Positions 28,895-51,425 of a DNA stretch of 64,000 nucleotides are shown here, in pieces. This DNA is from Aliivibrio fischeri. Its GTDB lineage: Bacteria; Pseudomonadota; Gammaproteobacteria; Enterobacterales; Vibrionaceae. A program made the position numbers and the translations under genes. Position 1 is the first letter of the stretch. Each line of letters begins with the position of its first letter. The stretch is from contig CP160629.1 in NCBI GenBank assembly GCA_038993745.2, forward strand, positions 2,046,001 through 2,110,000, given 5' to 3'. Below the pieces are notes generated by a model, which was not told where the DNA came from, searched no databases, and worked only from the letters and a program-made list of their open reading frames with translations.

Positions 28895-29402
28895 GGTGTT
28901 ACGCCTTAAAAATAATTCTATATTTTGAAATACGTTCGTTCAGGTCGCTCAAACTGCAATAAGACAGAACAGCACTCAATTCTCCTGAACCAGTTAATAT
29001 TAGAAACAATGCACCTATTAAGTGCTATCTATCAATACACTTGCAAATCTTATTGTTGAAGTACTAAGGTTAGAATGCAACCTAGCCTCAATGATGGATT
29101 GATCAATATCAACTCACTCTGAAAATTGTAACCCACTCATATCCCTAACTGCAGTAATTCATATTACACCAAGAGAATATATTTTTATCCTTGATACTGC
29201 TTATAAAACTGACAACAAAGCGTATCACAATCCATTAACCTAATCTTAAAGCCTCCTCATACTCTTGATCACACCTTATGAATAATTCAGTCAATTCTGA
29301 GTTATTTTTATGGAATAGATTCTGTATCACCTCAATTATGTGGTATAAAAAGCACGCTTTCTTTTCTGATGTTTTAACTACTTCCTATAGGTTCCCGTTA
29401 TT
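28895..29402. other. Gene-free 508-base ybaK-fhs intergenic region
   Basis: This divergent intergenic region holds no ORF with a credible ribosome binding site and no terminator-like hairpin. It does contain a perfect FNR-type palindrome at 29099-29112. The distance from the box to the fhs ATG (about 290 bases) implies either a long 5' leader or that FNR acts on a different start. Confidence 0.6.
29099..29112. promoter_or_regulatory. Perfect FNR-type box
   Basis: TTGATCAATATCAA matches the FNR consensus TTGAT-N4-ATCAA at every fixed position. It lies between divergent ybaK and fhs. At class II spacing it would give a plus-strand start near 29147 or a minus-strand start near 29064; neither has a strong -10 element. 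Confidence 0.6.
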
Positions 29403-36567: not shown

Positions 36568-36775
36568 TTATCGAATCAACTTAGCACGTAAAGAGCATTG
36601 GCAACATTTATTAGAATAAGATCACAAATAATTATACGCTTCAGTAGCCGATAGACCCTAACCATTTACAAAAACTTAGATTGATTAAATGACCGAGATC
36701 GACCTTTGATATAAATCAAATAAATAACTTCTAGTAATTCTGTTACAAAACGAATAACAAAAATTTCTATGTGAC

Positions 36776-49680: not shown

Positions 49681-51008
49681 TATTCAACCTCCAATACCAT
49701 TGCTGCACCTAAACCACCAGCGGCACAAGCCGTATTTAATCCTAATCCACCACCACGACGTTTTAATTCTCGTAATGTTTGAATAATCATTCTGGCTCCT
49801 GTTGCTGCAAATGGATGCCATAGGCTATTGACCCACCAAGGACATTAAATTTCTCCATATCAATTTCGCCAATGGCTTTATCTCTACCTAAACATTCTTT
49901 AGCAAATTTGTTTGAAGCAAACATTTTCACATTTGAAAGGGTTTGTGCTGCAAAAGCTTCATGCATATCAATTAAGGTAAGGTCTGATAATGAAATTCCC
50001 GCTTTATCCAAGGCCATTGGTGTCGCATAAGATGGTCCCATTAACATATCGTGATGTACATCTATCGCACTGAACGCAAACGAACGAATATAACCTAATG
50101 GTTCATAACCTAATTCTTTTGCTCGTTTTTCACTCATTAATAATAAAGCGGCGCCACCATCCGTTAATGGCGTACTATTAGCTGCAGTGACTGAACCATA
50201 TTTACGATCAAACGCAGGGCGCAATTTGGCATAACTTGCTAGTTCTGAATCATGACGAATATTATTATCATGATCTAACCACGCGGTATAAGGTTCAGGG
50301 AAAGCGGTCATTACTTCATCTTGAATAAGCCCATCTTTCCATGCTTTGGCTGCAAGTGTATGTGAACGATGTGCTAATGCATCTTGTTCTTCACGTGTTA
50401 TTCCATGACTTTTAGCCATTTGTTCTGCAGTTTGTCCCATAGAAATTCCCGTTGAATACTCAGCTACAGCGGGAGGAACAGGAGCAATGTCTTTTAATGA
50501 TAAAGTGCGAAGAAGTGATAACTTTTGGTAAACGGTTTTTTGTTTTACTAAGAGCAAGTAAAGTAGAAGCTAACTTTTTAGAGACACCAATAGGCAATAC
50601 AGAGGAAGAATCTGCACCACCAGCAATACCAATATCAATCGTGCCTGCCATAATACTCTCCACAACATTAGCTGTCGTTTGAAAGCTCGTCGCACAGGCT
50701 CTAGTTACACTGTAAGCATCAGTACCTATATTCATCCCCGTACCCAAAACAATTTCGCGAGCAATATTCGGAGCTTCTGGCATTTGTACTACTTGGCCAA
50801 ACACGACTTGATCAATTAATTTAGGATCAATATCCGTTTTATCCATTAATGCTTTTACCGCTAATTTACCAAGATCTACAGCAGGTGTAGTGCTGAATGC
50901 TGTCGATTGTTTAGCAAACGGAGTTCGAATGCCTGATACAACAGCAATACGATCACCTTGTCGTGTCGTTAACGGTTGATACTTACTTGAATTTACGCTG
51001 TTTGACAT
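49680..51008 (-). pseudogene. fadI: 3-ketoacyl-CoA thiolase FadI, two compensating frameshifts
   Basis: FadI is the thiolase partner of FadJ. Residues 1-160 read normally from ATG 51008 ([18 protein letters not shown] upstream), including the nucleophile Cys in [16 protein letters not shown] run of six A on the minus strand (T at 50536-50541) adds one base; the protein continues in another frame ([12 protein letters not shown] to [11 protein letters not shown]). Near 49818 one base is missing after TATGG, and the frame returns for [15 protein letters not shown] and the second catalytic Cys in [13 protein letters not shown]. As read, translation stops soon after the first shift and no active thiolase is made. 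Correcting both bases gives 442 residues. Sequencing error is a real alternative. Confidence 0.88.
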
Positions 51009-51033
51009 TGCTTCTCCTTGCATACATCAAAGG

Positions 51034-51043
51034 TGGTCAGACC
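51034..51043. promoter_or_regulatory. FadR-type operator of fadIJ
   Basis: TGGTCAGACC is the core of the FadR consensus (TGGTNNGACCA-like), 26 bases before the fadI ATG, so it would overlap the promoter or leader. FadR represses fatty-acid degradation genes and leaves the DNA when it binds acyl-CoA. Confidence 0.65.
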
Positions 51044-51222
51044 TCAAATTGTAACCAAGTTGTTAATAAGATATAGTGATGATAATCACAGGCTCATCAT
51101 AGAATAATGAATTTGGTCATGGGCTTAATTAAACGATAAATAGCAATGCTTTTATTGGTATATAAATTTCGAGGTTATAGATAGGTATTAAGGAGGTTTT
51201 TGATCTAATTCTGTTTTTTGGT

Positions 51223-51250
51223 AAAAAAAAACCACATCAGTCGATGTGGT
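51223..51250 (-). terminator. Oligo-U terminator of the candidate small RNA
   Basis: ACCACATC and GATGTGGT stem with loop GACT, followed by nine T on the minus strand. The plus-strand side has no T-run, so it acts on a minus-strand transcript. Confidence 0.82.
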
Positions 51251-51377
51251 CAGAATAAAAAACAATTAACGAGTAGCCAATTGTAAAAATCAGTTTCACC
51301 TGATAAGGAGAAAGTAAAGTCAGCCTTCAAAAGGAAATGTTATCTTGCTCAACGGGTTGATTACTCAACCAGATAAC
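51223..51377 (-). ncRNA. Candidate FNR-activated small RNA (about 155 nt)
   Basis: On the minus strand a FNR-like box (51425-51412) is followed 21 bases later by a -10 hexamer TATAGT (51390-51385), class II spacing, which predicts a start near 51377. The RNA would begin with GTTATCT, which pairs with AGATAAC around an inner GGTTGA/TCAACC hairpin. Then comes a single-stranded pyrimidine-rich part (CTTTACTTTCTCCTTATC), able to pair with ribosome binding sites. It ends in an 8-bp hairpin ACCACATC/GATGTGGT with nine U. No neighbouring minus-strand gene explains this terminator. The layout resembles enterobacterial FnrS, but I see no clear sequence identity. Confidence 0.55.
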
Positions 51378-51411
51378 GAGATCAACTATAACGTTAATCT
51401 CAATTCATTTA

Positions 51412-51425
51412 TTGAAATAGATCAA
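51412..51425 (-). promoter_or_regulatory. FNR-like box of the candidate small RNA
   Basis: TTGATCTATTTCAA on the minus strand differs from the FNR consensus TTGAT-N4-ATCAA at one position. It is centred about 41.5 bases before the predicted RNA start. Confidence 0.55.

Follow-up and report, generated by a model that had tools for sequence, protein, structure and literature searches.

FnrS, on which Durand and Storz worked in 2010, reportedly curbs aerobic metabolism, and AniS of Neisseria (Fantappie, 2011) is said to be an FNR-controlled, Hfq-dependent small RNA (sRNA) made at low oxygen. PrrF is controlled by Fur. NrrF, also Fur-controlled, represses sdh and cytochrome bc1 (PMC5586341). In Vibrio cholerae, many putative sRNAs change with nitrate (PMC11980369).

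One V. cholerae sRNA, Vcr043, lies between VC1046 and VC1045, a sigma-70 gene transcribed in the opposite direction whose promoter reportedly overlaps that of Vcr043 (PMC8545128). The RNA is about 160 nt long, has steady levels in LB and activates rpoS about 3-fold (PMC8545128). It yields several stable RNase E products (PMC7398697), its stability is Hfq-dependent (cited in PMC5089854), and it is one of 14 sRNAs possibly serving as 5' UTRs (PMC5089854). It forms many RIL-seq chimeras in V. cholerae, and its validated targets, which include grxA, vc0036 and sdhC (PMC9732341), hint at electron transport; no signal for it is named in the texts consulted. The term FNR is absent from the main text of PMC9732341, PMC8545128, PMC7398697 and PMC7695739, and no link between Vcr043 and FNR appeared in the open-licence titles and abstracts searched. 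FNR sites upstream of fadIJ were predicted in 2007 in all four Vibrionaceae studied, within a searched region from -500 to +100 (PMC1805755).

A candidate sRNA upstream of fadI in Aliivibrio fischeri

The window analysed here is a 64,000-nucleotide stretch of Aliivibrio fischeri DNA (contig CP160629.1). A sequence-only reading of it had proposed an FNR-activated sRNA of about 155 nt on the minus strand between fadI and the first fadL gene. The landmarks of that proposal are all where it placed them (Table 1): an FNR-like box with one mismatch, a -10 element at the expected distance, a 5' hairpin, a C/U-rich segment and a terminator with nine T. The candidate RNA folds at -39.7 kcal/mol, compared with a shuffle mean of -25.9 (z -3.9; 0 of 200 shuffles as low), and a scan of 1 kb, in which 0.3 terminator-like sites were expected, found its terminator as the only one. 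With the start inferred at the G that opens the first stem, the putative promoter has the geometry of a class II FNR promoter when tested for it, the box being centred at -41.5 and followed by a -10 element. No Rfam family reached its cut-off at the sRNA; the only match in the window to do so is a tRNA.

Table 1. Coordinates of the sRNA locus and its downstream neighbour within the A. fischeri window.
Feature	Position	Strand	Basis or remark
FNR-like box TTGATCTATTTCAA	51425-51412	minus	read from sequence; 1 mismatch vs TTGATNNNNATCAA
-10 element TATAGT	51390-51385	minus	read from sequence; 21 bases past the FNR-like box
sRNA, about 155 nt, Vcr043 ortholog	51223-51377	minus	fold, homologs, landmarks
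5' hairpin of the sRNA	51377-51339	minus	inner stem GGTTGA/TCAACC
Closing stem, 5' arm GTTATCT	51377-51371	minus	pairs with AGATAAC at 51345-51339
Closing stem, 3' arm AGATAAC	51345-51339	minus	helix 1, 99.6% of cells paired
C/U-rich core GAAGGCTGACTTTACTTTCTCC, 22 nt	51307-51328	minus	conserved; presumed base-pairing region
C/U-rich stretch CTTTACTTTCTCCTTATC	51319-51302	minus	read from sequence
Intrinsic terminator	51223-51251	minus	hairpin start 51251, 9-bp stem, nine T ending at 51223
FadR-operator-like GAGGTCTGACCA	51034-51045	minus	read from sequence, before fadI
fadI, downstream neighbour	49684-51008	minus	frame broken

A V. cholerae-like genome (G315) was chosen for comparison by its match to PDB entry 4p96, which we take to be V. 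cholerae FadR; the identity was 99%, with 97% in the next genomes. Homology can be followed from the window to an intermediate locus (L016, E 1e-36) and from there to G315 (E 7e-74). The G315 homolog (L083) measures 159 nt by the landmarks that give 155 nt in the window, and lies on the fadI strand; fadI is on one side of it and, on the other, a 188-aa gene read in the opposite direction, assigned to the sigma-70 family by visual inspection and a short motif. The divergent neighbour in this locus (L083 1883-2449) resembles an ECF-type sigma factor gene. Place, strand, length, core, terminator and promoter box are common to Vcr043 and the A. fischeri sRNA, whereas the divergent neighbour differs, being fadL in Aliivibrio and the sigma gene in V. 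cholerae. Given the shared position, strand, length and sequence, the sRNA of the window is the Aliivibrio ortholog of Vcr043 and in itself no novelty.

Conservation of the RNA structure and core

For structural analysis, 42 sequences (40 distinct) were aligned, comprising 41 of the 70 homologous loci fetched (see below) and the V. cholerae-like one, of Aliivibrio, Vibrio, Photobacterium and Enterovibrio types. Their stems covary. The consensus structure has 30 pairs, with 98.1% of cells paired compared with 93.2% in shuffles, and 11 of its pairs have changed on both sides compared with 4.5 in shuffles (0 of 500 shuffles as many); relatedness of the sequences can beat shuffles without any structure, which does not apply to the slid-structure control, where a shift of 1-3 columns left 24-47% paired. 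Helices 1 (the 5' stem) and 4 (the terminator) hold nine of the 11 two-sided pairs, with 4 of 7 and 5 of 10 of their pairs, respectively, changed on both sides. Helix 3 contributes the other two, and four more of its pairs deviate through unpaired cells only; helix 2 is invariant and thus uninformative either way.

The 22-nt core is invariant across the 42 aligned sequences and exact in 69 of the 70 fetched loci, the last base being changed in L049. It was absent as an exact match from the viral contigs searched. In the window's own genome, the sRNA itself aside, the nearest complements to the core are sites with three mismatches, and near-complements do not exceed the reversed control (22 matches compared with 24).

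A conserved box at a fixed distance from the -10 element

The window contains 13 FNR-like sites with at most one mismatch where 6.9 are expected, a count reached by 5 of 100 shuffles. A lone box of this kind is not clearly above chance, so the case rests on its conservation at a fixed place. A DNA search with positions 51440-51215 against 150 Vibrionaceae genomes gave homologs (E-value 1e-6 or lower) in 121, one of which (G024) is identical to the window across the query; the best E-value in the other 29 was 0.0024. Seventy of the 121 loci were fetched and none was dropped. The FNR-like box is present in all 70, with at most one mismatch in 67, as TTGATCTNNTTCAA in 66, TTGATCTACCTCAA in one and TTGATCTNNTGCAA in three; the pattern that places the box presets some of its letters, and no fetched locus failed it. 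The hexamer that starts 35 nt past the box's first base reads TATAGT in 62 loci, TATATT in seven and TAATAT in one. By script, the distance from this base to the inferred start is 48 nt in 62 loci and 47 nt in eight, which puts the box centre at -41.5 and -40.5, respectively.

Information content was computed for 46 non-redundant loci, those less than 85% alike. The two box arms hold 2.0 and 1.9 bits per position, the four middle positions 1.3 and the -10 element 1.8, compared with 0.27 for the spacer between box and -10 and 0.31 for the region upstream. Box and -10 element are islands of conservation, and the intervening spacer has drifted.

A separate scan of named genomes for the exact 22-nt core returned at least 117 stretches, 80 of which, among the matches listed, carry the names Vibrio, Aliivibrio, Photobacterium, Enterovibrio or Grimontia; this set overlaps the fetched loci in species, and the two are not independent. 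Among the matches listed, 115 of the 117 loci have the -10 element exactly 35 nt from the box's first base (79 of the 80 named stretches and 36 of the 37 others). The two exceptions listed are a locus cut by a contig end (L372) and that of V. furnissii CIP 102972 (L357), in which the right half of the box has decayed. The -10 element of the 80 named loci among those matches is TATAGT in 71 and TATATT in eight, with one unscored. Box, 5' stem and terminator are thus kept in related Aliivibrio and widely across the Vibrionaceae, and the conservation on which the sequence-only reading had staked its case is present.

Relation to FnrS, PrrF, NrrF and AniS

FnrS resembles the Vibrionaceae sRNA in being intergenic (110-121 nt in the FnrS loci examined), with an upstream FNR-like box and a terminator; in E. 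coli fnrS, this box is centred at -42.5. The two differ in genome place, which for FnrS is zntB-ynaL-dbpA, and share neither a model match nor the conserved part of FnrS. The FnrS model (RF01796), run with stricter filters on 295 genomes of the order, gave 26 matches and none in the Vibrionaceae, of which the sample holds at least 20. FnrS was likewise absent among matches with E up to 10 for the window stretch and for L053, and its conserved 5' end, GCAGGTGAATGCAACG, is absent from the Vibrionaceae sRNA.

An exact 15-mer, ACTTCCTTTTTTGAA, is shared with FnrS in two of 18 loci tested, both from g3 (Enterovibrio-type); 0 of 500 shuffles were as good in these two and 2 to 32 of 500 in 11 others, the 15-mer having been noticed before it was tested. 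It falls where FnrS sequences vary and is for that reason not used as evidence of homology. Homology to FnrS was rejected because the Rfam model finds no member in the Vibrionaceae, and the initial description, of an architecture like that of FnrS with no clear homology, still holds.

The segment UUUCUCCUUAUCAGG (51299-51313, minus strand) resembles the PrrF core UAUCUCCUCAUCAGG. The Rfam match is sub-threshold (E 0.0034), and its 28.8 bits compare with a gathering score of 90 for PrrF (RF00444); the resemblance possibly reflects convergent pairing against sdh. Both PrrF and NrrF differ from the Vibrionaceae sRNA in their control, which is by Fur, in contrast to the FNR box found here. AniS, going by its description, would share with the Vibrionaceae sRNA the control by FNR and the dependence on Hfq.

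Predicted pairing with sdhC

In 20 genomes, predicted duplexes of the core with sdhC span the start region of the latter, with energies from -12 to -19 kcal/mol. Of 300 shuffles, no more than 62 were as good in 17 genomes, and 74 to 163 in the other three; the sdhC start codon assumed for G004 is doubtful. Scores as good as that of sdhC were reached by 11 of 333 gene starts sampled in the window's genome (G000) and by 16 of 328 in G315, compared with 3 and 5, respectively, for the reversed-core control. By duplex energy, sdhC ranks among the best 3-5% of the gene starts sampled, and the pairing is no more than moderately strong. So modest a prediction does not prove a target alone, which the published V. 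cholerae reporter does.

We considered petA as a further target. Its start region has a 9-nt complement to the core, GGAGAAAGT (L277; window genome C1 near 2515600), in three Aliivibrio of the 20 genomes only; in the other 17, the complementarity is not kept and the site is mostly a plain ribosome-binding site. No claim is made for petA.

Loss and rewriting of the sRNA body

Of the 29 Vibrionaceae genomes without a DNA match, 28 carry FadI, 26 of them above the cut-off. The sRNA covariance model found three matches in these 29, each just upstream of fadI, of which one is clear (G003, E 3e-7) and two are weak (G032 and G072, E 0.003). Upstream of fadI, eight genomes of genus g10, which is probably Salinivibrio, have the box TTGATCTGTTTCAA (L169, L170, L172-L176 and L181), and six of g8 (Photobacterium) have the box TTGATTNNCCTCAA (L156-L161). 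In these 14 genomes and G003, a TANANT hexamer is found exactly 35 nt from the box's first base, and at least seven consecutive T follow 213-242 nt past that base, with hairpins visible ahead of the T runs. The Vcr043 core is gone from all 15, the best alignments matching 11 to 13 of 22 positions. This suggests that promoter and terminator may have outlived the sRNA body in g10 and in one clade of g8. In six small-genome members of g12 (Vibrio) that have fadI (L162-L167), there is neither a box within 700 nt nor the sRNA.

Beyond the Vibrionaceae, the model found nothing convincing in the order. Its 14 weak matches (E 2e-4 to 7e-3) mostly show, by eye, a good terminator after an apparent CDS end and were treated as chance; the 160 nt preceding each contain no FNR box matching at 9 of 10 positions.

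A model for oxygen control and its alternatives

We favour, with a probability of roughly 0.7, the reading that the RNA is a Vcr043 ortholog with a class II FNR promoter, activated by FNR at low oxygen, that trims aerobic electron transport. The FNR-activated sRNA first proposed for this site is in that respect supported by the conserved box, -10 spacing, 5' stem and terminator. The RNA would be a stand-alone, trans-acting sRNA transcribed from the minus strand, its box at -41.5 replacing a -35 element ahead of a good -10. As oxygen falls, FNR, whose gene A. fischeri presumably has, would switch the sRNA on, and transcription would end at the sRNA's own terminator ahead of fadI. The C/U-rich core, presumably with Hfq, would then pair with translation-initiation regions of aerobic electron-transport mRNAs, sdhC above all, and lower their output; that sdhC is lowered rather than raised is our inference, and we likewise expect the targets in Aliivibrio to be those of V. 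cholerae.

What is likely new for Vcr043 is a promoter of the FNR type and, through it, a signal. Conservation of that promoter suggests both a signal and a purpose for this RNA, which would be the RNA component of the oxygen response in the Vibrionaceae, a family without matches to the FnrS model; the sRNA would fill the role of FnrS with no detectable relation to it. More tentatively, and at slightly less than even odds in our judgement, the Vibrionaceae may have evolved an FNR-controlled sRNA of their own, unrelated to FnrS, that shuts down aerobic respiration at low oxygen, with the FNR site credited to fadIJ being its promoter, and with promoter and terminator having outlived the RNA body.

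It is unlikely that the sRNA, while real and a Vcr043 ortholog, has a box used by some other regulator of the CRP/FNR type, or a mainly constitutive promoter, with oxygen not the signal. The core of an FNR site is TTGA-N6-TCAA, in which the TGTGA of CRP does not occur. In favour of this reading, the box departs at one conserved position from the FNR consensus, a T being kept in place of the A found in E. coli, and Vcr043 levels are steady in LB (PMC8545128). These points are set against a class II spacing fixed in 115 of 117 loci among the matches listed, the similar box at nearly the same distance in E. coli fnrS and, weakly, the fact that a V. cholerae CRP-binding paper (PMC6050953) does not mention VC1045, VC1046 or VC1043 in its main text.

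Compared with FNR activation of a free-standing sRNA, it is quite improbable that the FNR site serves fadIJ and that the RNA is a terminated fadIJ leader (5' UTR), which FNR would lengthen through read-through. A motif ahead of fadI, GAGGTCTGACCA, resembles a FadR operator, has a similar counterpart ahead of fadI in the V. cholerae-like locus (L083) and suggests that fadIJ has a promoter of its own. The leader reading draws on the 2007 predictions, which credited the FNR site to fadIJ in four Vibrionaceae (PMC1805755), on the listing of Vcr043 among possible 5' UTR sRNAs (PMC5089854) and on the presence of fadI motifs downstream in 78 of the 80 named loci among the matches listed, the other two having less than 700 nt of DNA there. 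However, a strong, conserved terminator ends the sRNA about 215 nt ahead of fadI, the box is centred at -41.5 relative to the start of the sRNA, some 400 nt away from the start codon of fadI, and regulation in trans by Vcr043 is published (PMC9732341, PMC8545128).

By short motifs, among the matches listed, the divergent neighbour is ECF-sigma-like in 78 loci and fadL-like in 13, with 26 loci too short to tell; since the box is kept with either neighbour, it does not follow that neighbour and most likely belongs to the sRNA. Scanning the 400 nt past the sRNA terminator turned up a 9-of-10 FNR box in only one of the 70 fetched loci, so that the site predicted for fadIJ in 2007 is probably the sRNA's box, which we would re-read, by its position, as the sRNA promoter. 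The earlier suggestion that an oxygen-responsive RNA beside fadIJ would be new needs two corrections: the RNA is the ortholog of Vcr043, and an FNR site had already been predicted there and credited to fadIJ (PMC1805755).

That these are chance features of an AT-rich intergenic stretch with no transcript we consider negligible in probability: one-mismatch FNR boxes are common in the window, but against it stand the breadth of conservation, the covarying stems and a transcript published for V. cholerae that matches in size and location (PMC8545128).

Two minor observations concern other parts of the window. Perfect FNR consensus boxes occur at 29099-29112 and 36706-36719. On the minus strand at 49684-51023, fadI is broken up among two or three frames, which may stem from recent decay or from a fault in the assembly; the gene is a single open frame in A. 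fischeri emors.2.1 (L328).
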